Part shown: positions 2,360 through 28,014 of the stretch, piece after piece
How positions within the stretch are numbered: the stretch's first letter is position 1
How the letters are laid out: every line of letters begins with the position of its first letter
DNA from: Oscillospiraceae bacterium
GTDB lineage: Bacteria > Bacillota_A > Clostridia > Oscillospirales > Oscillospiraceae
NCBI GenBank assembly: GCA_021771675.1
Contig: JAETOP010000030.1
Location: forward strand, 1-33,032
Length of the DNA: 33,032 nucleotides
Reading direction: 5' to 3'
Notes under the pieces: generated by a model
Database searches by the model: none
The model's input: only the letters and a program-made list of their open reading frames with translations
Told to the model about the DNA's origin: nothing
Position numbers and translations under genes: made by a program

Positions 2360-3921
2360 CGGTCATTCCCCCAACCATCAATCTTCATACCCATGCCCCG
2401 GCGGTGGCAGCGAAGAAACGCAGGACGGCAGGGTGTGCCCGTGTCTCCACCGACAGTGATGAGCAGTTCACCAGCTACGAGGCGCAAATTGACTACTACA
2501 CCCGGTACATCCGGGGCAACGCTGAGTGGGAATTTGTGTCAGTCTATACGGACGAGGGCATTTCCGGCACGAACACAAAGCGCCGGGCCGGTTTCAATCA
2601 GATGATCGCCGATGCCCTTGCCGGGAAGATAGACCTCATCGTCACCAAGTCGGTGAGCCGCTTTGCCCGGAACACGGTGGACAGCCTGACCACCATCCGC
2701 AAGCTGAAGGAGCATGGCGTGGAGGTCTACTTTGAAAAGGAGAACATCTGGACCTTTGACAGCAAGGGCGAGCTGCTCATCACCATCATGTCCTCACTGG
2801 CCCAGGAGGAGAGCCGCTCCCTTTCGGAGAACATCACCTGGGGCCAGCGCAAGAGGTTCTCTGACGGCAAGGTCAACCTCCCCTATAAGCAGTTCCTCGG
2901 CTATCGGAAGGGGCCGGACGGGTTTCCAGAGGTGGTGGAGGACGAGGCCAAGATCGTCCGCCGCATCTACGCCCTTTTCATGGAGGGCAAAACCAGCTAT
3001 GCCATCGCCAAGGCCCTCACCGCTGACGGCATCCCAACGCCCTCTGGCAAAAGCAAGTGGGGGGCCAGCGTGGTGGAGAGCATCCTCACGAATGAGAAAT
3101 ATAAGGGAGCGGCACTCCTTCAAAAATGCTACACGATAGACTTTCTCAGCAAAAAGCGGAAGGTCAACGAGGGCGAAGTTCAGCAGTATTGGATCGAGAA
3201 AAGCCACCAGCCCATCATCCAGCCCCATGAGTTCGATGTTGTCCAGGCCGAGTTCGCTCGGCGCAAGGGCATGGGCCTCCACTACAGCGGCGGCGGGGTG
3301 TTCTCCTCCCGGCTGGTCTGCGGCGACTGCGGCAGCTACTACGGCCCCAAGGTCTGGCACTCCAACAGCAAGTACCGCCGCGTTGTCTGGCAATGCAACA
3401 GAAAGTTTAGCAACGAGGAAAAGTGCCGCACCCCACATCTGATGGAGGAGGACATCAAGGCTCGGTTCCTGGCGGCGTTCAATCAACTGCTGGATGGCAA
3501 GGAGGCTCTGCTGGAGGATTGCCGCATCATGCAGGACCACCTCACCAACTGCTCCGCCATTGACGCAGAACTGGACGAGCTGCTCCGGGAGATCGCGGTA
3601 GTGACGGAGCTGACCCAGCGGTGCATCCAAGAGAACGCCCGGAGCGCACAGAGCCAAGAGGAGTATGCCGAACGGTACAACGGCTATGTTGCGAGGTACG
3701 AGAAGGCCAAGGCCAAGGTGGATGCCCTCCAGGAGCAGAAAAAGCAACGGCAGGCCAAGGCCGACATTATCGGTGGGTTCATGTTCGCTGTACATGAGCG
3801 GGAGGTTGGTGTCACAGAATTTGACACTGCTCTCTGGCTGGCGGTGGTACAGAAAGCCACGGCTTACCATGATGGGCGGCTGGTGTTCACTTTCCAGAAC
3901 GGCATGGAGATTGAGGGATAA
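2338..3921 (+). CDS. Large serine recombinase 2
   Basis: This is the second site-specific serine recombinase, 527 aa from the ATG that overlaps the end of recombinase 1 by 22 bases. The resolvase domain carries the catalytic serine in CARVST (about residues 33-38), SVSRFARN and the conserved LAQEESRSLSENI helix. The Recombinase domain (FLGYRKGPDGFPEVVEDEAK), a zinc ribbon (CGDCGSYYG, then WQCNRKF and EKC) and a long C-terminal coiled coil (about residues 390-480) follow in the usual order. The residue before A-R-V-S is Cys where this family nearly always has Tyr. Tandem, overlapping recombinases at the end of an element suggest heteromeric integrase function, an inference from gene order. Confidence 0.9.
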   Translation: MPATRAVTVIPPTINLHTHAPAVAAKKRRTAGCARVSTDSDEQFTSYEAQIDYYTRYIRGNAEWEFVSVYTDEGISGTNTKRRAGFNQMIADALAGKIDLIVTKSVSRFARNTVDSLTTIRKLKEHGVEVYFEKENIWTFDSKGELLITIMSSLAQEESRSLSENITWGQRKRFSDGKVNLPYKQFLGYRKGPDGFPEVVEDEAKIVRRIYALFMEGKTSYAIAKALTADGIPTPSGKSKWGASVVESILTNEKYKGAALLQKCYTIDFLSKKRKVNEGEVQQYWIEKSHQPIIQPHEFDVVQAEFARRKGMGLHYSGGGVFSSRLVCGDCGSYYGPKVWHSNSKYRRVVWQCNRKFSNEEKCRTPHLMEEDIKARFLAAFNQLLDGKEALLEDCRIMQDHLTNCSAIDAELDELLREIAVVTELTQRCIQENARSAQSQEEYAERYNGYVARYEKAKAKVDALQEQKKQRQAKADIIGGFMFAVHEREVGVTEFDTALWLAVVQKATAYHDGRLVFTFQNGMEIEG

Positions 3922-5878: not shown

Positions 5879-8971
<3,093 letters not shown>

Positions 8972-8995
8972 TGTGTCATCACTCAATTCTATGTT

Positions 8996-9187
8996 TTAGT
9001 ACAAATCGATGTCATCATGATCCTCACCATCATAATGATCGTAATAATGAAATCCACATTCTATTGGTTTTCCACACTCGCAGCAAACGTCCCAATATCC
9101 AAATTCCTCAAGTTCGCTGGTAATCCCATGGCTTCGTCTACAATTACAGTAGCCGATTTTATTAATATCCATGCCGTGAAAGTACAT
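8996..9187 (-). CDS. Small Cys/His/Asp-rich protein inside the hsd operon
   Basis: AAGGAGG lies 8 bases before the second of two nearby ATGs, so I start here (63 aa) rather than two codons upstream, where spacing would be only 2 bases. The protein carries CNCRR, then DVCCECGKPIECGFHYYDHY and a very acidic GEDHDDIDLY tail. The cysteines and histidines suggest a small metal-binding (zinc-ribbon-like) fold. It sits between hsdS and hsdR in the same operon and is followed 24 bases later by hsdR. I do not recognise a named family. Possible roles are a modulator of restriction, such as an alleviation or anti-assembly factor, or a passenger; this is inference from position only. Confidence 0.65.
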   Translation of the reverse strand: MYFHGMDINKIGYCNCRRSHGITSELEEFGYWDVCCECGKPIECGFHYYDHYDGEDHDDIDLY

Positions 9188-9216
9188 TTTCATAACCTCC
9201 TTAAATTTTTTGAAAT

Positions 9217-10353
9217 TTAACTTTGTAACATTTCAATCTCTCCCGACATAAGTTCTGGAATAAGGGTGTCGCGGATTTTCGCAAGTTTTAGACTTTCATT
9301 TTGATTATGAACAATGGTTGCAACCATAGGCGCTATAGCTGCATTGAATTCTGCAAGAGTTTCATTATCAGGCGACAATAATAACATTGATTTAACACGC
9401 TCTCTTGGTAATTCTGTTTGACCTGTACTACCAGTATGAAGAGATTCAATCTCTCTCTCATGCAAAAGCCCCCATAAACCAATATAATAGATCAGAGATT
9501 CCTCTTTGGGTCGTACGATTGTTATATGAGAATCAACGGTCATATTTTGGGGTGCAAACCAGACCTGAGCCGCCCGCCCCAGAGTACCTTCTCCAGTTGA
9601 GTTAATAAGCAAGTCACCAAAATGTAACCACTTCTCATTCACTGCTTTAGGTCGGTGCTTTCTCGCTAAAGAAAGATCAATGAGGTGATTTCGGATACAT
9701 TTCTGATTAAGTACAATCTGTTCAGATGTGTCAGCATATTTGGGTGTAATTCCCCGACTTATCAGAGAGGCTAAGCTGCCAAGCGTAACAAGTCCCCAGT
9801 TTGTAGGTTGATTGCTTTTAAACAAACTAAAGTCAACAAACCACTCTTTGAATAAAGCCTGCGCCTGCCGCTCCAAATTTTCGTTTATCTTCTGGTTCAG
9901 TTCGATTTTATCGTCTAATGCTGACAAAATTGACACAACTTTTGCTTGTTCCTGTACTGGCGGGAGTTCAAATTCAATTGCATTTAGATTTGCCTGACTA
10001 AGTTTTGGTTGTGCCGAGCCTGTAATATAGCCAGAAATATCGGTTACATTAAAAAGATAGTATAAATATTCCAGCAAACACTTTTCATTAGTTTGAACAA
10101 TATGTGCATGATTGTTAACCCAGTATCTTCCAACGGCGAGTTGTGCCACTTTTTGCTTCTTTGATCTGAGATTTTCTCCATCTTCCGCGATTAGCAGGTA
10201 CTTCCCGTCAAAAATATAATCATCAATATAATCGATAATTCCCTGTGCTCCATAGTAAGGATACTGTCCTTTTCGGGATTCTCTTTGCTTTGCAGATAAG
10301 GGCACTCTTTTACTGTCATAGTTGATTGTAATTTCGGAAAACTTATATCTCAT
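9217..10353 (-). CDS. hsdS: Type I restriction-modification specificity subunit
   Basis: This subunit reads the bipartite DNA target for both methylation and cutting. The 378 aa split as expected: target-recognition domain 1 (about 1-130), a conserved helical spacer (LPPVQEQAKVVSILSALDDK through KEWFVDF), target-recognition domain 2 (about 185-325), and a second conserved helical repeat (LAEFNAAIAPMV through IPELMSGEIEM). The start overlaps the end of hsdM by 11 bases and has no strong ribosome site, so translation is probably coupled. Base composition is strikingly A+T rich against hsdM and hsdR on either side, which is common for S subunits that exchange specificity by recombination. No second hsdS or flanking inverted copy is present, so switching by inversion is not evident here. 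Confidence 0.93.
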   Translation of the reverse strand: MRYKFSEITINYDSKRVPLSAKQRESRKGQYPYYGAQGIIDYIDDYIFDGKYLLIAEDGENLRSKKQKVAQLAVGRYWVNNHAHIVQTNEKCLLEYLYYLFNVTDISGYITGSAQPKLSQANLNAIEFELPPVQEQAKVVSILSALDDKIELNQKINENLERQAQALFKEWFVDFSLFKSNQPTNWGLVTLGSLASLISRGITPKYADTSEQIVLNQKCIRNHLIDLSLARKHRPKAVNEKWLHFGDLLINSTGEGTLGRAAQVWFAPQNMTVDSHITIVRPKEESLIYYIGLWGLLHEREIESLHTGSTGQTELPRERVKSMLLLSPDNETLAEFNAAIAPMVATIVHNQNESLKLAKIRDTLIPELMSGEIEMLQS

Positions 10354-11845
10354 ACCCTATCGCCCCCAACTGCCTCCTGATCTCCCCCTCCAACTCGTGG
10401 GACTTGGCGAACAGCTCCCCCAGCTCGGCGGTCAGCCGCCCCATCTTCTCCTCAAAGGGCTCCCCGTCCTCCTCCTGCTCCTCAATGCCCACATACCGCC
10501 CCGGCGTGAGGATGTAGTCCTGCTTCGCGATCTCCTGGAGATCGGCCGCGGCGCAGAACCCCTTGACCCCCTCCAGCGTCCCCGCCACGAAGGCGTTGTA
10601 GGTATCGGCGATCTTTTGGATATCCCCATCGGTCAGCTCCCGCAGCTTCCGGGTCACCATGGTTCCCAGCTTCCGGGCGTCAATGAACAGGGTTTTCCCC
10701 TTCTGCCGCTTGCTTTTCGCCAGGAACCAAAGGGACACCGGGATCTGCGTGGTGTAGAAAAGCTGGGGCGGCATGGCCACGATGCAGTCCACCAGGTCGG
10801 CCTCGATGATGTTTTTGCGGATGTCACCCTCCCCGCCCGACTGGGAGGACAAGGAGCCGTTGGCCAACACCATGCCGATGCGTCCACCCGGGGCCAGGTG
10901 CCAGATCATGTGCTGGAGCCACGCGAAGTTGGCGTTGCCCGCCGGGGGCAGGCCGTAGGCCCAGCGCACATCCTCCGCCAGCTTGTCCTGCCCCCAGCCG
11001 GACAGGTTAAAGGGCGGGTTTGCCAGGATAAAGTCCGCCTTGAGCTGGGGGTGGCAGTCGTTGAAGAAGGTGTCGGCGTTGAACTTGCCCAGGTCGGCCT
11101 CGATGCCCCGGATGGCAAGGTTCATCTGGGCCATCTTCCAGGTGGTGGGGTTGGAGTCCTGGCCGAACACGGAAATTTTGTTGATATTCCCGCCGTGGTT
11201 TTCGATAAACTTCGCCGACTGGACGAACATCCCGCCGCTACCGCAGCAGGGGTCGTAGACCCGCCCGTTGTAGGGCTGGAGCACCTCCACCAGCGTACGC
11301 ACCACGCAGGCGGGGGTGTAGAACTCCCCGGCCAGCTTGCCCTCCTGCTCGGCAAACTTGGACAGGCAGTATTCGTAGGTGCGGCCCAGAATGTCCTTGC
11401 TGCTCCCATGCTCGATCATCTGGATGTTGGTGAACAGATCCACCACGTCCCCCAAGCGGCGCTTGTCCAGCTCAGGCCGGGCAAAATTCTTGGGCAGGAT
11501 GTCTTTGAGGCGCTTGTTCTCCTTCTCAATCGCGCGCATGGCCTCGTCGATCACCGCACCCACCTCTGGCGTGTGGGCAGCGGCGGAGATCACAGACCAC
11601 CGGGCAGACTCCGGCACGAAAAAGATGTTCTCGGCGGTGTATTCGTCCTTGTCCTCCTCGAAGCCGTCGCCCTCGGCTGCCAGCTCGTTGTACTTGGCCT
11701 CGAAGCGGTCAGAGATGTACTTTAAGAAAATCAGGCCAAGGACTACGGACTTATATTCCGATGCATCCATATTGCCGCGGAGGACACAGGCCGCCTCCCA
11801 AATCTGCTTTTCAAAGCCGATATTGCTTGTATTTGTTTCCGCCAT
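10343..11845 (-). CDS. hsdM: Type I restriction-modification methyltransferase subunit
   Basis: This N6-adenine methyltransferase forms the M2S core. From this ATG (500 aa) there is a helical N-terminal domain (GFEKQIWEAACVLRGNMDAS through LKYISDRFE), then the S-adenosylmethionine site DPCCGSGGMF at 198-207 and the catalytic NPPF at 276-279, with the C-terminal helices that hold HsdS. The start is set by AGGGG 9 bases upstream and by the usual MAE.. onset; a longer in-frame extension of 21 codons lacks support and would include the -10 region of the likely promoter. It is the first gene of the operon hsdM-hsdS-small protein-hsdR. Confidence 0.95.
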   Translation of the reverse strand: MAETNTSNIGFEKQIWEAACVLRGNMDASEYKSVVLGLIFLKYISDRFEAKYNELAAEGDGFEEDKDEYTAENIFFVPESARWSVISAAAHTPEVGAVIDEAMRAIEKENKRLKDILPKNFARPELDKRRLGDVVDLFTNIQMIEHGSSKDILGRTYEYCLSKFAEQEGKLAGEFYTPACVVRTLVEVLQPYNGRVYDPCCGSGGMFVQSAKFIENHGGNINKISVFGQDSNPTTWKMAQMNLAIRGIEADLGKFNADTFFNDCHPQLKADFILANPPFNLSGWGQDKLAEDVRWAYGLPPAGNANFAWLQHMIWHLAPGGRIGMVLANGSLSSQSGGEGDIRKNIIEADLVDCIVAMPPQLFYTTQIPVSLWFLAKSKRQKGKTLFIDARKLGTMVTRKLRELTDGDIQKIADTYNAFVAGTLEGVKGFCAAADLQEIAKQDYILTPGRYVGIEEQEEDGEPFEEKMGRLTAELGELFAKSHELEGEIRRQLGAIGYEI

Positions 11846-11884
11846 TTTAATATCCCCTAACGTTTCTTCCATATATTTATAGTC

Positions 11885-11913
11885 ATTATATCCTATCCAG
11901 CCCATCAACGCAA
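11885..11913 (-). promoter_or_regulatory. Promoter of the hsd operon
   Basis: On the minus strand TTGCGT and a perfect TATAAT are separated by 17 bases. The start is expected near 11878, leaving a leader of about 33 bases to hsdM. The -35 element lies about 20 bases past the end of a decayed recombinase gene. Confidence 0.65.
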
Positions 11914-11931
11914 TCCACTATCCTTCCAATT

Positions 11932-12173
11932 CTACAATAGCCGCCAGATGTGCCCCATCGTCACCTCAGACAGCGGCCCGCCGTTTCTGCGGTTCCCATG
12001 GGCCCTGCGTTCAGTCAAGAATTCCCCTACTGCGTCAGATGTGAGCTGCGTCAATTCCCGCTCCCCCAGGCAGGGGACGACGTGGTTTTCCAGTACATAT
12101 CGGTGGTCGTCCGCCGCAACGCTGGCGCGTCATACTGCTCCTGCCAGTACCCTGCCCACTCCCGCACCGTCAT
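11932..12173 (-). pseudogene. Frameshifted, truncated tyrosine recombinase (N-terminal part)
   Basis: A good ribosome site (GGAGGGG, 9 bases) precedes ATG and MTVREWAGYWQEQYDAP, the start of the SAM-like core-binding domain of tyrosine integrases. After DMYWK the frame breaks near 12086-12091 and runs into a stop. In the next frame the same domain goes on without interruption: ENHVVPCLGERELTQLTSD, then AVGEFLTERRAHGNRRNGG and PLSEVTMGHIWRLL, ending at TAG. The catalytic domain is absent. This is therefore an integrase remnant with one indel and a 3' deletion whose end now abuts the hsdM promoter. Confidence 0.7.
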
Positions 12174-12257
12174 AACCCCATCCCCCTCCCGCTCAGCTGG
12201 AGCTGTCGAAAGCCAGTCACCGGAGGCCGTGCCTCGCTCAACACTTTTCAATGGAGA

Positions 12258-12886
12258 TTAATAAAGGCGGTGCAACGTATACGGCTGTCCAGTCTTGGCC
12301 TCCAAGAAAACTTCGGGACTGTCCGAGTGCTTGGCGTGTTCCTCCACCAGCAGCTCCGCCGCCCGAGGTGACAGCCCTATCCAACGTTATTTCATTACCA
12401 CCCCCCGGGAATATCAACAGCGGCCCACGACAGGGAGAGCAGTTCCCCTTGCCGCAGACCGCTGGCCAGGTCGACATATAAAATTGGATAGGCGCTCAAT
12501 CCTTGAGCCGCATCTAAGTACCGCTTGATCTGCCCGGAACGCCAGCGGCTAATTTCCAACGCATCGCCCGGGGAACCGCTGATGCTCCAGGCCGGGTTTT
12601 CCTGAATCCGTCCCTCCCGGCAGGCTTCGTCCAAGATCCGCCGCAGAAGCAGATGGACGCACCACACACTGCGGTCAATCAGCCCTGCTTTGGACAACTT
12701 GCGGTAGAATGCCCTAATTTGTCTCTCCCTTAAATCAGTGGGCGCCACACCGCCCAGCTTTGGGGCAATGTGGTTGAAGATCAGGTTCCGGTATCCGCCC
12801 ACGGTGTTGGGCGCCAATTTTCCCTCCGCCTGGGTGTGGAACCACTCCGCCGCCCACTCTCCCAGTATCATGTTCTGTTCTGCCAT
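12258..12886 (-). pseudogene. Disrupted tyrosine recombinase, second copy
   Basis: From ATG at 12886 the frame encodes MAEQNMILGEWAAEWFHTQA and a full core-binding domain, then the start of the catalytic domain with the first catalytic arginine in ASGLRQGELLSLSW. It stops after VDIPGGW. Another frame then continues the fold as RAAELLVEEHAKHSDSPEVF followed by LEAKTGQPYTLHRLY and a stop, with an extra in-frame TAA near 12390. The HxxR and Tyr motifs of the active site are missing. At least one indel, one stop and a 3' truncation make it non-functional. It lies tail-to-head with the other remnant on the same strand. Confidence 0.75.
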
Positions 12887-12948
12887 GGCTTTCCCTCCTT
12901 GCAGCACAAACATATACCACAGAAGGGCGGAACAATCCATAGAAAGAA

Positions 12949-17133: not shown

Positions 17134-18027
17134 CTAATGCGTAATACCGTAAAAATAGTCTTCAAAATATTGTAATGGTTCAGATGGTTTTGCAGTCTCC
17201 CGTGTGATCATAGCGGTCTGGGTACGATATACAGGATAAATGGGAAGGCATAATAGATCAGAGGTCAGGTATGCCCTTGCCACTCCAGACGAGAGAAAGG
17301 TAACCCCCATGTCAGCACGGATCATAGAGATTAAGCTATCCATATTTGGGCAGGTACATACAATGTTGGGCCGCACCCCACACTGTTTGAAGATATCGTC
17401 CATCTCCATCCGGATGCTGGTGGTTTTTTCCAGGGTGATAATGGGCACCGTGGACAGGTCGTGTACCTTTACGCTCTTTTGTCCACCAAAATCTCTTTTG
17501 AGGGACGCCACTACCATGATGGTGTCTTCCAAAAAAACACGAACATTTAAACGTGAATCCATTTGCCTACCAGGTGAAATGTGAATATTTGTAATTGCAG
17601 CATCTAATTCTCGGTTTAGAACCCGGTTAATCAGCGCAGAGCTCCATGCCACCTGAAGGTCAATATGGATATTCGGATAGACTTGATGAAAAGAGTTGAT
17701 GTACTCAGTTATATTGAGATGGGAGAGGGTAGCGAGCAGCCCAACTGACAATGTTCCGCCAACCTCCCGACGGTGGAGCTCCATTGTGCGCTGAAGCTCC
17801 GCCACCTGTTCCAATACCTTCTGAGCCCCATGGACAAATTCTTCCCCCGCGGCAGTCAGCACAACCTTACGGGTAGTGCGCTCAAAGAGCTTAAGGCCTA
17901 ACTCCTCCTCCAGCAAACTAATCTGTTGAGAGAGGGCGGGTTGTGTAATATAAAGCTGTTCAGCTGCCTTGGAAAAGTTGGACGTCTGAGCCAGCTGAAG
18001 CACATATCGGAGTTGGGAAAGCTCCAT
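17134..18027 (-). CDS. LysR-family transcriptional regulator
   Basis: The 297-aa protein has a winged HTH at residues 1-60 (MELSQLRYVLQLAQTSNFSK, AAEQLYITQPALSQQISLLE) and an inducer-binding domain of periplasmic-binding fold from about 90 (GTLSVGLLATLSHLNITEYI). AGGAGA lies 10 bases before the ATG. It is transcribed away from the EPSP-synthase-like gene, with 148 bases between the two starts, the standard layout for a LysR protein that activates the divergent operon and represses itself. The inducer is probably the compound handled by that operon; nothing in the sequence identifies it. Confidence 0.9.
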   Translation of the reverse strand: MELSQLRYVLQLAQTSNFSKAAEQLYITQPALSQQISLLEEELGLKLFERTTRKVVLTAAGEEFVHGAQKVLEQVAELQRTMELHRREVGGTLSVGLLATLSHLNITEYINSFHQVYPNIHIDLQVAWSSALINRVLNRELDAAITNIHISPGRQMDSRLNVRVFLEDTIMVVASLKRDFGGQKSVKVHDLSTVPIITLEKTTSIRMEMDDIFKQCGVRPNIVCTCPNMDSLISMIRADMGVTFLSSGVARAYLTSDLLCLPIYPVYRTQTAMITRETAKPSEPLQYFEDYFYGITH

Positions 18028-18053
18028 GAAACCGCTTCTCCTTTTATAAGTTC

Positions 18054-18111
18054 AGATTATAAATAGCATTATATCTAATTATTTCTCAAAACGCAAGGGG
18101 TCTGCTATACT
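18054..18111 (+). promoter_or_regulatory. Putative LysR operator and promoter of the enolpyruvyl-transferase operon
   Basis: TATAA-N6-TTATA (18058-18073) lies within a longer imperfect dyad. Downstream is TATACT (18106-18111) with a poor -35, TTCTCA, 17 bases before it. The dyad centre would be about 50 bases before the start point, the usual place for LysR activation of a weak promoter. The region is A+T rich, so the dyad could be chance. Confidence 0.4.
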
Positions 18112-18175
18112 TAATTCATCAATTGATTGACCTCTCGGCCGACGTGGTGCCAAAAAATTATGGAGATGTCAAACT

Positions 18176-19486
18176 ATGTTTTATTTGGTAAATCCTACAT
18201 CGCAGCTCAATGGTGACGTAAACGTTCCTGGCTCCAAGAGCCAGACTGCCCGGGGACTTGTTCTGGGCACGCTCGCAAAGGGTACCAGTCACATTCTGCA
18301 TCCCATGCTGAACCTGGACAACTATGACATTGCTGAGTGCTGCCGCCGACTGGGGGCCCAGGTAGACACTTCCAACGATGAGGACTGGGTGGTGAGCAGC
18401 CCTGGCCTGGAGGGGCTCCACATTCCCGGCGCAGTGCTGGACGTGGGCAACTCGGGAACCGGATTTTACTTTATTACCACGCTGGCGGCAATGCTTACCG
18501 GTAAAAGCGTTATCACCGGTGACTACCAGATCTGCTACCGCCCCATTGCTCCCTTACTGGATGCAATTCGGGAGATGGGCGGCAAGGCGATGTCCACCCG
18601 GGACAACGAGCTTGCGCCCTTGGTGATTGAGGGGCCTGTCGAGGGTGGTCACACGGTTCACCTTAACGGCAAAAACGTCCAGTGGGGCATTGGCCTCATG
18701 GTATGCTGTCCTGCACTGAAGGACACCACCACTATCGTTTACGATACCACCCTGGGCGAGCGTCCCTATGCCAACCTGACTATGGACTGGATGAAAGCAG
18801 CCGGCGTTCATTTGGAGAACTGCAACTATGAGAAGTTCGTTATTCCAGGCAACCAGACTTATCGCCCCTTCACCAAACGCACCTCCCGTGACTGGTGTTC
18901 TGCCAGCTACCCCCTGGTGGCAACCGCGATCATGAAAGAGAAGTGCCGCATCAAGCTGCTGGACATGGATATCAACGACTTCATGGGTGAACGCCACTAT
19001 GTGGACTGGATCAACGAGATGGGCGGACACGTCGAGGTTCTGAACGGCGGAAAGGACGGTATCATCGTTGAGGGCGGACATGAGCTCCACGGCATCGAGA
19101 TTGACTGTGGCGACACTCCTGATGCCGTACCTGCCCTTGCAGTGCTGGGCTGCTATGCTCAAGGCAAGATGAAGCTCTATAACATTGCCGCCAGCCGCAT
19201 GAAGGAAACTGACCGCTCCAAAACCATCGCACAGGAACTACGGAAGATGGGTGCCCACATCGACGAGGATGAGGACAGCCTGACCATTTACCACTCTCCT
19301 CTCCACGGAGCCACCATCGACGGACACAACGACCACCGCATCGTTATGGCCACCGCGTGCGCCGCCCTGGGTGCTGAGGGCCCCAGCTTTATTGACTCGG
19401 TTGACCATGTTGGGGTATCCTTCCCCCGTTTCTATGAGGAGATGAGGAATATCGGCGCCAACATGATTCGTTTGGCTGAGAAATAA
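18176..19486 (+). CDS. aroA: EPSP synthase (AroA) family enolpyruvyl transferase, acceptor probably not shikimate 3-phosphate
   Basis: Classic AroA (MurA-like fold) transfers enolpyruvate from PEP to shikimate 3-phosphate. The 436 aa are full length. Aligned by eye with the E. coli enzyme, PEP and catalytic residues remain: K21 (PGSKSQTAR), R122 (YRPI), D316 (DTPDA), E344 and R347 (KETDR), H387-R388 (DHR). The last PEP lysine (E. coli K411) is V414. The residues holding the 3-phosphate and ring differ: S169-S170 are N167-V168, S197 is E195, N336 is A339; S22, R26, Q169 and Y198 stay. GGAG lies about 10 bases before the ATG. No other shikimate gene is near. It is followed by a TAXI-TRAP transporter and faces a LysR gene. 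A diverged but true AroA is the alternative. Confidence 0.85.
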   Translation: MFYLVNPTSQLNGDVNVPGSKSQTARGLVLGTLAKGTSHILHPMLNLDNYDIAECCRRLGAQVDTSNDEDWVVSSPGLEGLHIPGAVLDVGNSGTGFYFITTLAAMLTGKSVITGDYQICYRPIAPLLDAIREMGGKAMSTRDNELAPLVIEGPVEGGHTVHLNGKNVQWGIGLMVCCPALKDTTTIVYDTTLGERPYANLTMDWMKAAGVHLENCNYEKFVIPGNQTYRPFTKRTSRDWCSASYPLVATAIMKEKCRIKLLDMDINDFMGERHYVDWINEMGGHVEVLNGGKDGIIVEGGHELHGIEIDCGDTPDAVPALAVLGCYAQGKMKLYNIAASRMKETDRSKTIAQELRKMGAHIDEDEDSLTIYHSPLHGATIDGHNDHRIVMATACAALGAEGPSFIDSVDHVGVSFPRFYEEMRNIGANMIRLAEK

Positions 19487-19561
19487 TTCCAACGACAAGG
19501 GATTCAAAAGCTGGTAGAATCAACGTACACAGACCCGTAACTAAATTTAGGAGGTATAGTT

Positions 19562-20578
19562 ATGAAAAAGATCGTTAATCTTTTGCTGGCCCTGGCTATG
19601 GCATTCTGCCTTTCGGCCTGCGGCAATTCCGACAGCCAGCCCAGTGCTCCCGCAGGCAACTCCGGCACTCCCGGCGGTGTGACCCGTATCACCATCGGCA
19701 CCGCCGGTACCTCCGGTGCACTCTATCCCATGGGGGTTGCCATGGCCGAAACCATCACCAACCATGTGGACGGCATCACCGCCACTGGTGAGTCCACTGC
19801 CGCATCCATCGAAAACCTGCGGAACCTCCATGACGGCAAGATGGCAATGGGCATCTCCATGAGCGAAATCTGTGCTTACGCTTACCACGGAATAGGCGAC
19901 TATGAGGGCAGTGATTACACAGATATCCGCGCGATGTTCTCCACCATTAACAACTATCTCCAGGTCTTTACGCTCAAGGACAGCGGCATCACCTCTATTG
20001 AGGATCTAAAGGGAAAAACTGTGAGCATGGGCTCCGCCGGCAGCGGCGGTGAGATGGCCGGACGTATGCTCCTGGGCGTCTATGGTCTGGACTACAACTC
20101 GGTCAACGCCCAGTTCATGGGTGAGTCCGACGGCGCCACCGCGCTGAAGGATGGCAAAATCGACGCCATGATCGCCACCCATCCCCTGAACTCTGCGGCC
20201 CTCACCGAGCTTACCACCTCTTGCAACGCGGTACTCCTGTCCATCGACAACGATGCGTTTTATGAGACTTATCCCGCCTACTCCAAAACCACCATTCCTG
20301 CGGGCACCTATCCCAACAACGATACCGACGTGGTAGTTCCGGGCAACAAAGTGATCATGTGTACCTCCCTTAACAGCGGCCTCACAGACGACCAGGTTTA
20401 CGAGATCACCAAAGCCATCTGGGAGAATCGGGACGAATGGGCATCCAGCGCCAAAAGCGTGGAGAGCCAGGCGATTTTTGACGATGTCCTCCAATGCATC
20501 GATCTCCCCCTGCACCCCGGCTCCATCCGTTACCTGGAGGAGAAGGGTGTGACCATTCCTGATGACCTGAAGGGCTGA
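19562..20578 (+). CDS. TAXI-type TRAP transporter solute-binding lipoprotein
   Basis: This extracytoplasmic receptor captures a substrate, usually an organic acid, for the TRAP permease that follows. The signal peptide ends in a lipobox LSAC with Cys at residue 20, so it is membrane-anchored. A Ser/Gly/Pro linker follows. The mature domain starts ITIGTAGTSGALYPMGVAMA, the hallmark of TAXI (NMT1-like) receptors, with IEDLKGKTVSMGSAGSGGEM in the hinge part. AGGAGG lies 7 bases before the ATG. It sits 75 bases after the aroA-like gene and is separated from the permease by a hairpin, which would make more receptor than permease. Confidence 0.92.
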   Translation: MKKIVNLLLALAMAFCLSACGNSDSQPSAPAGNSGTPGGVTRITIGTAGTSGALYPMGVAMAETITNHVDGITATGESTAASIENLRNLHDGKMAMGISMSEICAYAYHGIGDYEGSDYTDIRAMFSTINNYLQVFTLKDSGITSIEDLKGKTVSMGSAGSGGEMAGRMLLGVYGLDYNSVNAQFMGESDGATALKDGKIDAMIATHPLNSAALTELTTSCNAVLLSIDNDAFYETYPAYSKTTIPAGTYPNNDTDVVVPGNKVIMCTSLNSGLTDDQVYEITKAIWENRDEWASSAKSVESQAIFDDVLQCIDLPLHPGSIRYLEEKGVTIPDDLKG

Positions 20579-20586
20579 AACGATTA

Positions 20587-20619
20587 AAAAGGGGCGGACG
20601 CTTGCCGCCCGCCCCTTTT
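20587..20619 (+). terminator. Intercistronic hairpin between receptor and permease genes
   Basis: AAAAGGGGCGG and CCGCCCCTTTT form a perfect 11-bp stem with an 11-base loop that can itself pair with the stem's GC part. It lies 8 bases after the receptor stop. It probably acts as a leaky terminator or as a 3' RNA stabiliser, lowering permease expression relative to the receptor. Confidence 0.7.
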
Positions 20620-20636
20620 GCGAATGAGGTGATAAT

Positions 20637-22538
20637 ATGAACGATAAGCTCCAGTCCAAAAGCGCAAAGGCACTGGATATCATCCTGTCTGTGGTATGCT
20701 TTGTGGTGGCGTTGTTCCACGTTTTCATAGCTTGGGATACCTCCATCAGCCTGGTTCAACAGCGGGTGTTCCATGTCTTTGCAATGCTCCTGATTTATTT
20801 CCTCATGCAAACCCAAAAAGCTGCCTCAGATGGAAAAGTCACAAGGTTCCTCCATGGCGCCCTCTCTCTGATTACCACGGTGGTAGGCGGTTATTTTCTG
20901 GCCAATACCACCCTGACCGCCCTGTCGAAACGGGGGATCAGCGGTGCCACCGATCTGGACATCGTCATGGGCGTCTTGCTCATCCTGGCCGTCATGGTAC
21001 TGGCCTGGCGGACAGTAGGCTGGGCCTTGACTGCCCTGAGCGCCATTTTCATCCTTTACGCCGTAGCTGGGCCTTATATGCCCGAGCTCATCGCCCACCG
21101 GGGCTATGATATCCCGTATATCACGAGCTATGTGGCCTGGACAAGTGAATCCATTTTCGGCACCTGCATCAGTGCTTGCGTGTCTTTTGTGGCGCTGTAT
21201 ATCATTTTCGGAGAGCTGCTCGATGTGTTTGGCGCGGGCCAGTTCTTTATTGATATCGCATATGCCCTCACCGGTCGGATGAAAGGCGGCCCGGCAGAGG
21301 CTTCCGTGGTGTCCAGCGCCTTAATGGGTTCCATCAACGGTTCCGCAGTGGCAAACGTGGTCACCACCGGCACGTTCACCATTCCCCTGATGAAGAAGGT
21401 GGGCTACCGTCCGGAATTTGCCGGCGCGGTAGAGGCGGTGGCCTCCACCGGCGGGCAGCTTCTGCCTCCAGTTATGGGTGCCGCGGCCTTTGTTATGGCC
21501 GACCTGACGGGCATTCCCTATTCCACCATCATCATCGCGGCGATCATTCCTGGTATTCTTTACTATCTAAGCCTTGGCACCTCGGTATATCTTGAGGCAG
21601 ACAAGCAAGGGTTGCAGGCGGAGCGTGCGGATAAGCTGCCTCAGGTGAAAAAGGTACTCAAAGAGGGCTGGTATTATGCCCTGCCCATTCTTGTGTTGAT
21701 TGTCGCCCTGCTGGGCTTCGGCCTCTCCGCCAACTTTGCCGCACTATTCAGCATTGCGGTGCTGTTAGTCATCGGTTTTGCCAAGGAGTGGATCACCAAC
21801 AAGCGGCTGCCGTTCAAAGAGGTGTTTGACGCGCTGGTGAAGGCATCCAAGACTACTGTGTCCGTGACAATCGCCTGCGCCTGCGCTGGCATCGTGATCG
21901 GCATCGTATCCATGACCGGCATCGGTATCAAATTTACCAGCATCGTTTTTCAGCTCTCCGGCGGGCATCTGATTCTGATGCTCCTCCTGGTTATGCTGGC
22001 CTGCATCATCATGGGCATGGGGCTTCCCAGCACGGCGGCGTATATTATTGCCGCCACTGTGGGCGTACCCAGTTTGGTTGCCGCAGGTATCCCCGAATTA
22101 CCCGCCAACCTTTTTGTGTTCTATTTCGCCATCATGTCTTTTATCACCCCGCCAGTGGCGGTGGCTGCCTATGCTGCGGCTGGCCTTGCCGACGCCAGTG
22201 CCAGCAAAACAGGGTGGCTGGCCTTTATGCTGGGTTTGCCCGGCTTTATCATCCCGTTTGTCTATGTCTATAATCCCGCCTTGCTGATTGTGGACACCCC
22301 AGTGTGGGATACGGTCTGGATCGTGATCTTGTCCACCTTCGCAGTTACACTCATGTCTATGACGGTAATCGGTTGGTTCAAGGGAAGGCTGAATCCAATT
22401 TTCCGAATTGCCATAGCCGTGGCTGCTATCCTGATGTTTGTCCCCGGTTTGATCTTCGACATAATCGGTTTGGTAATGGGTGCCAGTATCATCGGCTTCC
22501 TCTTTTTCACGCGGCGTAAAATGCCTGGTGTGGTATAG
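20637..22538 (+). CDS. TRAP transporter fused permease (DctQ-DctM type)
   Basis: The 633-aa integral membrane protein joins the small (4-helix) and large (about 12-helix) TRAP subunits, as is usual for TAXI systems. The large-subunit signatures are MGSINGSAVANVVTTGTFTI and GGQLLPPVMGAAAFVMA, with the repeat MGMGLPSTAAYIIAATVGVP and FITPPVAVAAYAAAGLA. It drives ion-coupled uptake of the ligand held by the receptor. GAGGTG lies 6 bases before the ATG. A terminator hairpin follows about 200 bases downstream, after a stretch with a foreign remnant. The substrate is unknown; context suggests the acceptor or product of the aroA-like enzyme. Confidence 0.93.
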   Translation: MNDKLQSKSAKALDIILSVVCFVVALFHVFIAWDTSISLVQQRVFHVFAMLLIYFLMQTQKAASDGKVTRFLHGALSLITTVVGGYFLANTTLTALSKRGISGATDLDIVMGVLLILAVMVLAWRTVGWALTALSAIFILYAVAGPYMPELIAHRGYDIPYITSYVAWTSESIFGTCISACVSFVALYIIFGELLDVFGAGQFFIDIAYALTGRMKGGPAEASVVSSALMGSINGSAVANVVTTGTFTIPLMKKVGYRPEFAGAVEAVASTGGQLLPPVMGAAAFVMADLTGIPYSTIIIAAIIPGILYYLSLGTSVYLEADKQGLQAERADKLPQVKKVLKEGWYYALPILVLIVALLGFGLSANFAALFSIAVLLVIGFAKEWITNKRLPFKEVFDALVKASKTTVSVTIACACAGIVIGIVSMTGIGIKFTSIVFQLSGGHLILMLLLVMLACIIMGMGLPSTAAYIIAATVGVPSLVAAGIPELPANLFVFYFAIMSFITPPVAVAAYAAAGLADASASKTGWLAFMLGLPGFIIPFVYVYNPALLIVDTPVWDTVWIVILSTFAVTLMSMTVIGWFKGRLNPIFRIAIAVAAILMFVPGLIFDIIGLVMGASIIGFLFFTRRKMPGVV

Positions 22539-22837: not shown

Positions 22838-23488
22838 ATGAAGATAAATCAAAAAATTTGTCGTGCTATATACTATATTCTTGGCCTCACTATTTTAGCG
22901 CTTGGGCTGACACTGAATGCCAAAACCGGGTTAGGTGTGTCGCCCATCACTTCGTTGCCATACACCGTCGCGGAGATTCTACAGATCAATTTCGGCAATA
23001 CGGTCTTTCTCTCCTACCTAATTTTTATTGCCATAGAACTGGCTTTGACGAAGCAACCATCGGAGCGAATTTTGATTATTTTGCAGATTCCGCTAAGCAT
23101 CGTGTTTACGCGGGTAATGAATCTATTCGGCGGTCTTTTTACCCTGTATGTAGAAACACTCTGGCAACGGATGCTTCTCCTGCTGTGCGCAATTTTTTGT
23201 ACGGGAGTTGGCGCGGCATTGACAATGAATATGCGCCTTGTACCCAATCCGGGCGACGGGGTTGTCCAGTCGATTTCTGAGTTCTCCGGTCAGGAGGTTG
23301 GTCTGGTCAAAAATTGTGTGGACTTGATCAATGTACTCTGTGCGTTTCTCCTTGGCTGCCTGGCCGGAAACCCACTGTTGGGGGTGGGGCTCGGAACGGT
23401 GATTGGTGTATTCGGTATTGGACGTATTGTAGCGCTATTTAACAAACTTTTTAAGGAGCGCCTTCAGACACAGTCAGGCCTCTCCTAA
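22838..23488 (+). CDS. YczE/YitT-like integral membrane protein (DUF6198 type)
   Basis: The 216-aa protein has about five to six membrane helices. It shows the family's signatures: YYILGLTILALGLTLNAKTG, then LGVSPITSLPYTVAEIL, and a second half beginning GAALTMNMRLVPNPGDGVVQ. These two half-repeats resemble each other, as in YczE and YitT proteins. Function is not settled; transport of a small molecule is likely. AAAGGAG lies 8 bases before the ATG. It appears to be transcribed alone, flanked by terminators. Confidence 0.75.
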   Translation: MKINQKICRAIYYILGLTILALGLTLNAKTGLGVSPITSLPYTVAEILQINFGNTVFLSYLIFIAIELALTKQPSERILIILQIPLSIVFTRVMNLFGGLFTLYVETLWQRMLLLLCAIFCTGVGAALTMNMRLVPNPGDGVVQSISEFSGQEVGLVKNCVDLINVLCAFLLGCLAGNPLLGVGLGTVIGVFGIGRIVALFNKLFKERLQTQSGLS

Positions 23489-23904: not shown

Positions 23905-25722
23905 TTATGTCGCAAACCCCGCATATTGCGTCATGTAGAGATGGTAGTATTTCCCTTTTTGTGCAATCAGCATCTGGTGGCTGCCACATTCCACTATTCT
24001 GCCCTGATCCATTACCACGATCATATCTGCATCCCGGATGGTGGATAGCCGGTGGGCAATGACGATGCTGGTGCGGTTCTCCATAATCTTCTGCATAGCT
24101 TCTTGGATGGCCCGCTCCGTTCGGGTGTCCACATTGGAGGTGGCTTCGTCCAGAATCAATATCTTCGGGTCTGCCACAAATGCCCGGGCAATGGCCAGCA
24201 GCTGACGCTGCCCATAGCTGATGTTCTCGCCACCCCCGGTCAGAATAGTATACCAACCTTGGGGCACGCCCTCGATCAGTTCGCCGCAGTGGCTCATACG
24301 GGCCGCCTGTTCCACATCTTCTAAGGATGCGTGCTCGCTTCCATATCTCAGGTTGTTTAGGATGGTATCATGGAACAGCACTGTGTCCTGCAAAACGATA
24401 GCCACATTCCGACGCAGGTCATCCCTGGAAATGTTCTGAATATCCTGCCCGTCAATCAAGATCGTTCCACTGTCAATGTCGTAAAAGCGCATGAGCAGAT
24501 TGACCAGCGTGGTTTTGCCGCTGCCTGTGGCCCCCACCAGTGCCACTTTTTCCCCCGGAGGCACCACCAGGCTGAAATCCCGGATCACCGGCTGGCCCGG
24601 GACATAGGAAAACTGTACCTGCCTGAATGTTACAGCGGCGGGGCCGTCCTCCAGCGCGTTCCCGGTTTTATCCTCATCCGGCTCATCCAGGACGGCAAAT
24701 ACTCGTTCCGCTCCGGCGATGGCGGTCTGGAGCTGACCGTATATCTGCGCCAGCTCGTTGATAGGGCGGCTAAACTGTTTGGCGTAGACAATGAAAGCGG
24801 AGATGACCCCCACGGAGATCAAACCGCTGGCGGAAAAGTATCCGCCGAAGGCGGCGATGATGACAAAGCCAATGTTGCCGATGCAGTTCATCACCGGCCC
24901 CATAACCCCGCTGAAAATATCCGTTTTGATGCCTGCACGGGTCAGGGAATCGGAGATGGCGCAGAATTCCCCCACTGTGGCCTCCTGGTGGTTGTAAGCC
25001 ACCATAGTGCGGTAGCCGGACACCATCTCCTCAACGGTACCGTTGAGCCTGCCCAGCAGCATCTGCCGCTGCCGGGAAAATTTGCGTACCCTCCCGGAGA
25101 GCACCTTGGTTGCCAGAAGGGTCAGCAGAACGGTGGCGCAGCTGAGCAGTGCCAGCTGCCAGCAGTACCACAGCATCACGGCCACCGTCCCCAGTATGGT
25201 TAGGACACCGGAAAACAGCGAAGGAAGGGATTGGGAGATGGTGGTGGAGATATTCTCCACATCGTTGGTCATGCGGCTCATCACATCGCCGTGGGAGTGG
25301 GTGTCCATATAGCGGATGGGTAGGTCTACCAGTTTCCCGAACAGCTCTCCCCGCATCCGTTTTACGATGCGCTGGCTCAGATGGGCGCTGAGCAGCCCCT
25401 GCATCAGCTGGCAGGCGCTGTAAAGAGTATAGACAGCCAACATTCCCAATACGGTCCCCAACAAACTGTCCTTCCGGATACCTGCGATCGCATCAATGGC
25501 ATTGCTTTGCAGGCTGGGGGCGTAAACCCCACACGCCGTGCCCAAAACCACCACAAGCAGTATGGCCAACACCATGGCTTTCTCCCGGGCAAAATAGGCC
25601 GCGATGCGTCGAAGCGTCGCCCCGGCATTTTCCGCGTGTTCCGCCTGAGCAAACCGCTGCTCCCGATTCATCATGCCGGGGATGTTACGGGCAGCAAGCG
25701 TCTGCTCTTTTTGTTCAGACAA
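23905..25722 (-). CDS. Heterodimeric ABC exporter, subunit with consensus catalytic residues
   Basis: A membrane domain of six helices (about residues 45-330) is followed by an ATPase domain. Walker A is GATGSGKTT, Q-loop IVLQDTVLF, signature ISYGQRQLL (not the standard LSGGQ), Walker B ILILDEATSNVD with the catalytic Glu, and H-loop IAHRLSTI. The start is TTG overlapping the end of the first subunit by 8 bases, with AGGAGG 9 bases ahead; this gives 605 aa, and the longer open frame upstream lies inside the partner gene. The first 45 residues form a cytosolic lead-in (AARNIPGMMNREQRFAQAEH). Half-sites complement those of the partner, as in BmrCD or TM287/288 exporters. Likely substrates are drugs or lipids. 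Confidence 0.93.
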   Translation of the reverse strand: MSEQKEQTLAARNIPGMMNREQRFAQAEHAENAGATLRRIAAYFAREKAMVLAILLVVVLGTACGVYAPSLQSNAIDAIAGIRKDSLLGTVLGMLAVYTLYSACQLMQGLLSAHLSQRIVKRMRGELFGKLVDLPIRYMDTHSHGDVMSRMTNDVENISTTISQSLPSLFSGVLTILGTVAVMLWYCWQLALLSCATVLLTLLATKVLSGRVRKFSRQRQMLLGRLNGTVEEMVSGYRTMVAYNHQEATVGEFCAISDSLTRAGIKTDIFSGVMGPVMNCIGNIGFVIIAAFGGYFSASGLISVGVISAFIVYAKQFSRPINELAQIYGQLQTAIAGAERVFAVLDEPDEDKTGNALEDGPAAVTFRQVQFSYVPGQPVIRDFSLVVPPGEKVALVGATGSGKTTLVNLLMRFYDIDSGTILIDGQDIQNISRDDLRRNVAIVLQDTVLFHDTILNNLRYGSEHASLEDVEQAARMSHCGELIEGVPQGWYTILTGGGENISYGQRQLLAIARAFVADPKILILDEATSNVDTRTERAIQEAMQKIMENRTSIVIAHRLSTIRDADMIVVMDQGRIVECGSHQMLIAQKGKYYHLYMTQYAGFAT

Positions 25723-27454
25723 TTCCTTCAGCCTCCTCTCCCATTTGGGAACGGTAAATGTCCTGATAAATTCTGCACTCTGCCAGCAGCTCCTCGTGGG
25801 CGCCCACAGCGGCGATCCGTCCGCTTTCCAGCACCACGATGCGATCCGCTTTCCGCACGGAGGCAATGCGCTGGGCTACGATGATCTTGGTCATACTTTG
25901 GCGATTTTCATTTAGCGCGCGGTACAATTCCGCCTCGGTCTTTAAATCCAGCGCGCTGGTAGCGTCATCCAGGATCAGGATCTCCGCCCGCTTCAGCACG
26001 GCCCGGGCAATGGACAGCCGTTGGCGCTGTCCGCCGGACAAGCTCATGCCCCGTTCCGCCACGACGGTATCGTAATCCTCCGGGGCGGAGCGGATAAAGC
26101 CATCCGCTTGGGCGATCTTTGCCGCCGATGTGATCTCTCCCGCCGGTGCGCCCGGTTTGCCCCAAGCGATGTTTTCCCCGATGGACACGGTGAACAGCTC
26201 CGCCTTTTGCAGGGCAACGGCCACCTTTTCCCGCAGCGCCTGCTGGCGGTATTGCCGCACGTCCACTCCATCCACCAGCACCGTGCCCGCCGTCGCGTCG
26301 TAAAAGCGGGGAATCAGGTTGATCAGGGAGGTCTTCCCGCAGCCGGTGCCTCCCATGATGGCCACCGTTTCCCCTTGCCGGATGGTCAGATTGATGTGCT
26401 CCAGCACCGGCCGGGCAGCGCCCGGGTAGGCGAAGGACACATCCCGAAACTCGATCTCGCCCTGATGTCCGGGATTGCCGTCAAGACTGCCGTCCTTTAG
26501 CTCCGGTTCGCTGTCCAGCAGCTCTTTGACCCGTTTCCAGGAGGCCAGCCCGCGGGAGATATTCTGGAACAGCATTACCAGCATGAGCACGCCGTTGAGG
26601 AGTTGGGTGGTATAGGTGACCGCCGCCATCACATCGCCCGGAGTCGTGCCGCCGGTGGACACCTGGAAGGAACCCATATATAAAATGACCGCCACCACTG
26701 CGTACATCAGGGCATTGACTGCGGGGTTCATAAAGGCGAAAATCACCAGCACCCGCAGCTGGGTGCCGATCAGCACCTCGTTGGCTTTCCCGAACCGCGC
26801 CTTTTCATAGGCTTCCCGCACACAGGCCTTGATGATCCGGATGCCCGACACATCCTCCTGCATGATGGAGTTGATGGCATCCAGCTGCCCCTGCAATTTG
26901 GAGAACAGAGGGTTGGCTTTCCACAGGCACAGGACGATGCACCCCGCCACCAGGGGAAAGGCACACAAAACGATCCAGCCGAACTCCCGGTTCAGCCGGA
27001 ACATACAGTACATACTGCCAAAAGTCAGCATACTGGTGCGGATCAGCCCGCGGATAAACACAGAGACAAAGGTCTGCACCTGCGTGATGTCGTTCGTGAC
27101 CCGGGTCACCAGGGAGCCTGTTCCAAAGCGATCCAGCTGCGGGAACGAAAACGACATGATCCGCCGGAAGATGTCCTTGCGGATCTCATTGCCGGTGTTC
27201 TGGCTGGCGATGTGGGTAAAGACGTTGTTCAGTGACCCGCATAATCCGCCAAACAGCACCAGAGCGATCATTTGCAGCCCCAGCGTCCAGATCAGCCCCA
27301 AGTCGCTTGTACCTCCGGTCTTTAATCCCAGTACGCCCTCATCCACAATGCGGCTCATGATCCCCGGCTGGATCAAGTCCATCGCCACCTCGCCGATCAT
27401 GAAAAGCGCCGCGAGGATCGCGTAAAACAGGTAGCGCTTGATGTATTTCCACAT
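25715..27454 (-). CDS. Heterodimeric ABC exporter, subunit with degenerate catalytic residues
   Basis: The 579-aa half-transporter has a six-helix membrane domain from MWKYIKRYLFYAILAALF and an ATPase domain with Walker A GGTGCGKTS and a standard signature LSGGQRQRL. The Walker B ends ILILDDATSALD, with Asp in place of the catalytic Glu, and the switch reads VAQRIASV, with Gln for His. Degenerate Walker B and H-loop here plus the odd signature in the partner would make one inactive and one active ATP site, the known asymmetry of heterodimeric exporters. AGGAGGG lies 7-8 bases before the ATG, which begins 2 bases after the MarR stop, so the regulator and both subunits form one operon. Confidence 0.93.
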   Translation of the reverse strand: MWKYIKRYLFYAILAALFMIGEVAMDLIQPGIMSRIVDEGVLGLKTGGTSDLGLIWTLGLQMIALVLFGGLCGSLNNVFTHIASQNTGNEIRKDIFRRIMSFSFPQLDRFGTGSLVTRVTNDITQVQTFVSVFIRGLIRTSMLTFGSMYCMFRLNREFGWIVLCAFPLVAGCIVLCLWKANPLFSKLQGQLDAINSIMQEDVSGIRIIKACVREAYEKARFGKANEVLIGTQLRVLVIFAFMNPAVNALMYAVVAVILYMGSFQVSTGGTTPGDVMAAVTYTTQLLNGVLMLVMLFQNISRGLASWKRVKELLDSEPELKDGSLDGNPGHQGEIEFRDVSFAYPGAARPVLEHINLTIRQGETVAIMGGTGCGKTSLINLIPRFYDATAGTVLVDGVDVRQYRQQALREKVAVALQKAELFTVSIGENIAWGKPGAPAGEITSAAKIAQADGFIRSAPEDYDTVVAERGMSLSGGQRQRLSIARAVLKRAEILILDDATSALDLKTEAELYRALNENRQSMTKIIVAQRIASVRKADRIVVLESGRIAAVGAHEELLAECRIYQDIYRSQMGEEAEGIV

Positions 27455-27456
27455 GC

Positions 27457-28014
27457 TCACTCCCTCCTGCCCTGGCCGCAGGGATGGGCGCAGTTCGCGC
27501 AGCCGCCGCTGCAACCGTGTCCCTTTTCATGATGGTGGCGGTGATGCTCCCGGCTTCCCTGGTAGCGGATTTCCCAGTCGGCATTGATTTTTTCCAGCAG
27601 GGAGAGCAGTTGTGCCTTCTCCGCCCCAGACAACACGGAGAACATCTCCTCGTGCCTCTGCTGCCGCTGCGCCATAGCCTCTGCTGCCTGCCGCAGCCCC
27701 TCCTCTGTCAGGGTGATATTGGTAGTCCTGCGATCCGTTTCGCTGAGGGCACGGGCAATCAGTCCCATGTTTTCCAGTTTTGCGATGACTTCGCTGGCGG
27801 AGCCGGACTGGATGCCCAGCCGCGCCGTCAGCTCCCGCTGGGTGATCGTACCTGTTTCACGCAGAAGTATCAGGATCCGTTTTTGGCTGCCCTTTCCCTC
27901 ATACAAAGAGCGCATCGTGTGGCTGATGTCCCGCAGGAGAATAATGAGTTGCCCATTGACAGTTTCCATTGAGCGCTGATCCATATGACGTATTGCTTTT
28001 TCTTGATGTCTCAT
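27457..28014 (-). CDS. MarR-family regulator with a His/Cys-rich tail
   Basis: The 185-aa protein has the MarR winged HTH: QRELTARLGIQSGSASEVIA as recognition region and the wing ALSETDRRTTNITLTEEG. After the dimerisation helices it ends in an unusual tail, EHHRHHHEKGHGCSGGCANC then AHPCGQ, about 30 residues that could bind metal. AAAGGA lies 9 bases before the ATG; the longer upstream frame covers the promoter. It is the first gene of the exporter operon, and a palindromic operator overlaps its promoter, so it probably represses itself and the exporter. The signal may be a drug, a metal or a thiol stress; the tail favours the latter two. Confidence 0.9.
   Translation of the reverse strand: MRHQEKAIRHMDQRSMETVNGQLIILLRDISHTMRSLYEGKGSQKRILILLRETGTITQRELTARLGIQSGSASEVIAKLENMGLIARALSETDRRTTNITLTEEGLRQAAEAMAQRQQRHEEMFSVLSGAEKAQLLSLLEKINADWEIRYQGSREHHRHHHEKGHGCSGGCANCAHPCGQGRRE

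Follow-up and report, generated by a model that had tools for sequence, protein, structure and literature searches.

An AroA-like enzyme encoded beside a TAXI-TRAP importer in an Oscillospiraceae bacterium: a candidate retooled enolpyruvyl transferase

Why should a gene of the family of AroA, the 5-enolpyruvylshikimate-3-phosphate (EPSP) synthase, stand beside the genes of a solute importer? The question is raised by a 33,032-nucleotide stretch of DNA from an Oscillospiraceae bacterium (GCA_021771675.1, contig JAETOP010000030.1, positions 1 to 33,032; hereafter the window), in which an AroA-like gene is followed by genes for a TAXI-type solute receptor and a fused TRAP permease and faces a gene for a LysR-type regulator (Table 1). 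Here we favour the reading that the AroA-like protein is a retooled enolpyruvyl transferase acting on an imported acid other than shikimate-3-phosphate (S3P), and give it a probability of about 0.48, a little short of even odds. The unit would import one carboxylic acid, and one enzyme would act on that acid. The LysR protein would control the divergent promoter; the TAXI and TRAP proteins would take up an acid with a carboxylate and, judging from the receptor pocket, probably without an alpha-amino group; and the enzyme, in keeping with its conserved residues on the phosphoenolpyruvate (PEP) side, would transfer the enolpyruvyl group of PEP to a hydroxyl of the acid, releasing phosphate.

An earlier note, made from the sequence alone, had described an AroA-like, a TAXI and a TRAP gene packed closely together and facing a LysR gene. 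The coordinates bear this out, with gaps of 75 bases between the AroA-like and TAXI genes and 58 bases between the TAXI and TRAP genes; the interval it gave for the unit, 18028-22538, covers the AroA-like, TAXI and TRAP genes and omits the LysR gene. Pfam and NCBIfam assignments of the four genes are concordant. The AroA-like protein scores 286.5 bits with PF00275 and lies above the aroA equivalog cut-off (TIGR01356, 340.9 bits vs 287.25) and below that of MurA (TIGR01072, 69.4 bits vs 392.7), an enzyme of the same superfamily and fold that differs from it at signature positions. NikO, which has UMP as its acceptor, is a precedent in the superfamily for another acceptor, although its match to the unit enzyme covers only 65 residues at 33.9 bits. 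The TAXI receptor carries a lipoprotein-like signal, LSACG, recognised by eye, and because it adjoins the TRAP permease the two can be classed as a TAXI-TRAP transporter. The statement that no other shikimate gene is in view also stood: none was seen by Pfam in 16 of the larger open reading frames (ORFs), a part of the full set, and tblastn queries with AroC, AroK, AroE and chorismate mutase found no match in the window.

To place this arrangement among relatives, we compiled 37 unit loci: 28 from a single scan of titled genome contigs, 8 from 398 genomes sampled in the phylum of genome G008 (9/398 genomes positive at 1e-100, one of them already among the 28), and the window. Findings at genome level rest on relatives of the window, and since most of these are metagenome-assembled genomes, absences from them are weak evidence. 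By tblastn, a TAXI gene is found in 30/37 loci and a TRAP gene in 29/37, with one locus (L024) stopping at the contig edge; importers of other kinds adjoin the enzyme gene in 5/37, and none adjoins it in 2/37. Three loci have an ABC importer with a receptor similar to Leu/Ile/Val-binding proteins, and in the one that was scanned, L138, an ATPase of branched-chain type was found. At L026 (9191-12568) the genes after that of the unit enzyme encode a CitMHS-family transporter and an arylsulfotransferase; at L027 (9006-10981) they encode an alpha/beta hydrolase and a membrane protein of the Gate family. Locus L009, titled Cellulomonas and perhaps misbinned, has no adjacent transporter and an MFS gene about 1.7 kb off, and L016 starts inside the enzyme gene, with a sugar-type ABC set further on and on the other strand. 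Regulators matched by tblastn were LysR in 15 loci, LacI in 12 and IclR in 8; none was seen in the truncated loci L016 and L024. The LysR match is divergent and adjacent in 11/37 loci, the window included; in four more it is on the same strand, some 3.2-3.5 kb upstream. Counting the window, 8/37 loci have precisely its gene order (divergent LysR, AroA-like, TAXI, TRAP), and four others have the order LysR-TAXI-TRAP-AroA.

The pairing of an importer with the AroA-like enzyme persists while the classes of regulator and importer vary, and the proposal of a dedicated unit held when its grouping was looked for in relatives, if not in a fixed gene order. Compared with L001, the AroA-like gene has a nonsynonymous divergence (dN) of 0.055 and a synonymous divergence (dS) of about 1.01, from which we conclude that it is under purifying selection and is maintained. 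Because of this selection, and because the grouping recurs in loci titled Clostridia and in loci titled spirochaetes, it is more than chance. Among the flanking genes, a LysE-type translocator lies directly 3' of the AroA-like gene at L022 (9353-9979), L023 and L024, where the TAXI gene is divergent, and six loci, L008, L012, L013, L015 (a weak match), L018 and L019, encode a DUF554 membrane protein no more than 3.1 kb from the unit enzyme. ORF clustering over 28 loci and part of the window revealed no further flanking family recurring in more than five loci; some of its clusters comprise three loci. Pfam scans of 10 and of 9 flanking genes gave nothing in common. A search of plasmids found no relative at 60% identity or above, the best place reaching 33%, and in the titles and abstract openings of the open-licence literature we found no account of an AroA beside a TAXI-TRAP importer.

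If the enzyme served the chorismate pathway, its neighbours or its genomes might be expected to say so. The flanks of the 37 loci gave no tblastn match to AroC, AroK, AroE or chorismate mutase, the four steps sought, with spirochaete queries that distant clostridial forms could escape; no genomic tie of the unit enzyme to the pathway was found. In the nearest relative, G001, whose protein is 91% identical, a separate AroA is encoded on a different contig, where AroC follows it directly and AroE and AroK come later. The check for a separate AroA came out as the note's proposal would have it, with another AroA-type gene in 25/28 relative genomes (the canonical type in 14, the spirochaete TSQ type in 9, with two fragments among them, and others in 2, L088 and L115), the exceptions being G004, G021 and G025. 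Matches to AroC were found in 25 of the 28 genomes, to AroE in 25 and to AroK, above the cut-off, in 26, and a MurA-type gene is present alongside in 26 (not in G020 or G025). Murdochiella massiliensis (G004) has two PF00275 genes only, MurA and the unit enzyme, and gave no match to AroC, AroE or AroK on long contigs of 0.35 and 1.29 Mb; the same unit is present in G870, again without AroC. No AroC match was found in G012, which has a TSQ-type AroA, or in G026, which has a canonical one. Among the 8 genomes from the 398-genome sample, AroC is missing from G106 and G258, and 5 have a canonical-type AroA besides the unit enzyme; G106 has another E197-type gene, G258 has MurA-type genes only and G077 has a split gene.

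A tree of 91 sequences, made by a quick method without bootstrap and carrying a long-branch warning, places the unit enzymes in a clade of their own (37 sequences, Shimodaira-Hasegawa-like support, SH-aLRT, 99), neighbouring a clade of 35 spirochaete AroA sequences (SH-aLRT 99). Left out were L147, L148, L177 and L178, of which three are duplicates and one is a broken gene, as well as the short sequences L072 and L091 and all MurA sequences but two. The loci of the sister clade were examined in a spirochaete sample, in which 130/296 genomes matched at 1e-45. Two of the best 30 places are unit loci; among the remaining 28, chorismate mutase adjoins 20 and chorismate synthase 3, and with 23/28 loci so linked, the sister clade is very likely ordinary EPSP synthase. 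We had considered the TSQ-type spirochaete genes as a second odd family, and this was ruled out, as the loci of their clade adjoin chorismate mutase or synthase. In three Sphaerochaeta-like loci that were scanned (L117 7520-8548, L119 2187-3215, L144 4498-5526), the neighbour that follows the spirochaete-type AroA is a beta-eliminating lyase (PF01212) and not chorismate mutase; the housekeeping role of this sub-branch rests on kinship and on its being the only AroA candidate.

The unit enzyme shares its fold, length, and catalytic and PEP-side residues with EPSP synthase AroA. An AlphaFold model (predicted local distance difference test, pLDDT, 94.9) has as its best Protein Data Bank match an S3P-bound EPSP synthase, at a TM score of 0.90. 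The window enzyme keeps K22, D49, T97, R124, D313, E341, R344 and R386; among the 120 relatives listed of 2640 matches, D313, E341, R344 and R386 are found in 120/120 and R124 in 119, with one gap. A loss of R124, suspected from reading by eye, was ruled out by the alignment, in which it is kept. With tobacco and E. coli residue numbers equated by order, the four PEP-phosphate-binding residues of a tobacco model (PMC12256929) correspond to D49, T97, R124 and E341, and the active-site set given there includes residues equated with 169, 170, 197, 336 and 340. Using 41 unit sequences (38 genes and three second copies; L088 and L115 in neither set), we found N169, W172, W243, P249 and C308 in 41/41, distinct from the sister clade, with A336 in 38/41, Y119 in 39/41 and Y123 in 35/41. 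The sister has T/S169, Y/F/H172 and Q336 at the matching positions. W172, W243, P249 and C308 are absent from the tobacco active-site list. It is at 169, 172 and 336, and in its linkage to importers and not to chorismate genes, that the unit enzyme departs from AroA; from its sequence it appears to be close kin of spirochaete-type EPSP synthase, altered around the acceptor site, and its acceptor is probably not S3P.

The receptor gives a second view of the substrate. In VcGluP (PMC11574862), the amino group of glutamate is held by Y45, Q93 and E125 and the alpha-carboxylate by S75 and G156, and glutamate binding is hit hardest by loss of Q93. That transporter has the TAXI receptor and TRAP permease families in common with the unit; the unit pocket differs from it at Y45, E125, Y200, M201 and G203. 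In VcGluP numbering, we read the pockets of 27 of the 30 loci with TAXI. S75 and G156 are kept in 27/27, so that the ligand likely carries a carboxylate, as far as pocket residues can tell. L45, and N or S at 125, are also found in 27/27, so that the glutamate determinants Y45 and E125 are absent; the window receptor, with L45 and M93, lacks the key residues Y45/Q93 of the glutamate TAXIs (VcGluP, TtGluBP). An alpha-amino group on the ligand thus appears less likely from the sequences, although the retention of Q93 by most relatives counts against asserting this firmly. In a reverse test, the TAXI receptor was used to search the 398-genome phylum sample, and 25/398 genomes matched at 1e-55. 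The pocket pattern L45, T201, P203 was found in 7/25 TAXI loci, and 7/7 of these adjoin an AroA-like gene (only a partial one in L185); in the other 18 the pattern was found in 0/18 and an AroA-like neighbour, within about 1.5 kb, in 0/18. The test shows orthology and linkage, with receptor and enzyme travelling together, and says nothing on the ligand.

Several of our own observations pull against a retooled transferase with a new acceptor. The join of the unit clade with its chorismate-linked sister, unresolved in an earlier tree, is supported at 92. At the usual S3P-phosphate contacts given in PMC12256929, which we equate with R100, S197, K340 and the S170 backbone, the window has Y100, E197 and V170, with K340 kept; K411, kept in 14/15 canonical sequences, is V in the window and V or I throughout the unit clade. 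The sister sequences listed have E197 in 28/28, V/I411 in 28/28 and Y100 in 21/28. E197 and V/I411 are thus common to the spirochaete-type AroA that joins the unit clade on the tree, and loss of the usual contacts does not by itself exclude S3P; we rejected the argument that K411V, S197E and R100Y prove the S3P site to be lost, as chorismate-linked spirochaete AroA shares the first two changes and mostly the third. W243 occurs in 8/15 canonical AroA sequences and N169 in L088, outside the unit clade, which is why the mark of the unit enzyme is the combination of N169, W172 and A336. Q93, moreover, is kept in 22/27 unit receptors, with M93 in 5, the window among them. Finally, no second conserved enzyme is at hand to use a product, which is awkward for a step that consumes PEP.

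That absence makes a reverse, catabolic direction a serious rival: as a nutrient step, an enolpyruvyl ether acid would be imported and cleaved with phosphate, yielding PEP and an alcohol. The idea explains why one enzyme suffices and why LysR, LacI or IclR regulators accompany it, and it agrees with the kept PEP- and phosphate-side residues and with units in genomes having no AroC match (3/28 and 4/10, one genome in both sets); the nearby LysE-type protein (3 loci) or DUF554 protein (6 loci) might export the alcohol. Yet EPSP synthase favours the forward direction and we know of no abundant natural enolpyruvyl ether, and we regard reversal as improbable; that it would take the specific form of a one-enzyme nutrient module built on a so far unrecognised enolpyruvyl ether, with the family run backwards, seems more doubtful still. 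It is comparably improbable that the fold has been kept and its chemistry lost, giving an isomerase, lyase or hydrolase that acts on the imported acid without PEP. An isomerase or lyase is common in units with a single enzyme, and the exchange of K411 across the unit clade would fit; V/I411 is, however, also found in the chorismate-linked sister, certain other AroA genes have T or V there, and R344, R386 and the residues that we equate with the PEP-phosphate contacts of the tobacco model (PMC12256929) are kept. The least probable of the alternatives is that the unit joins the uptake of an acid of the shikimate pathway to an ordinary isozyme of EPSP synthase. The TIGR01356 score, the ordinary look of the sister clade and the lack of another AroA-type gene in 3/28 genomes speak for it, and it is opposed by G004, which has the unit without AroC, AroE or AroK, by the absence of AroC, AroK, AroE and chorismate mutase near the 37 loci, and by the changes at 169, 172 and 336. 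The earlier note's suggestion, that an imported acid or alcohol is modified with PEP or an imported enolpyruvyl ether is split, with a new acceptor plausible, is thus supported in part: the unit is dedicated and conserved, the PEP-side residues are retained and those three positions are changed, while acceptor, direction and PEP use stay at the level of proposal.

Candidate control elements are listed with the genes in Table 1. The inverted repeat is partly conserved in five relatives aligned. Promoter-like sites number 9 in the region against 5.3 in shuffles, which makes the one listed weak, and terminator-like hairpin sites number 7 against 4.9. A small membrane protein (DUF6198, YczE-like below the cut-off) is encoded 3' of the TRAP gene on the same strand (22838-23488). 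Two adjacent ORFs at 23905-27514 cluster together and look by eye like ABC exporters. Upstream of the unit, 1037-3921 and 5879-12940 hold two resolvase-type recombinases, a type I restriction-modification set and an integrase fragment, making this a mobile-looking stretch.

Table 1. Genes of the unit and candidate control elements in the window
Feature	Position	Strand	Remarks
LysR-type regulator, divergent	17134..18027	-	297 aa; HTH_1 and LysR_substrate
AroA-like (PF00275) enzyme, proposed retooled enolpyruvyl transferase	18176..19486	+	436 aa; family, residue, tree and structure evidence
TAXI-type solute receptor	19562..20578	+	338 aa; TIGR02122 TRAP_TAXI
Fused TRAP permease (DctM)	20637..22538	+	633 aa; TIGR02123 TRAP_fused
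Candidate LysR operator, inverted repeat TTTATAA-N7-TTATAAA	18043..18063		sequence reading; putative function
Promoter-like site TTCTCA-17-TATACT, TG before second hexamer	18083..18111	+	weak
G+C-rich hairpin between TAXI and TRAP genes	20592..20610		terminator-like on minus strand only

To our knowledge, very few acceptors of enolpyruvyl transfer have been described, and a new one tied to an importer, if true, would extend the list of reactions and of nutrients by one each. The product of aroA is also the target of glyphosate. Because the AroA-like protein scores above the cut-off of the NCBI aroA model and its relatives carry aroA product names, annotation and surveys of EPSP synthase as the glyphosate target may count the unit enzyme as aroA, though it probably is not one.

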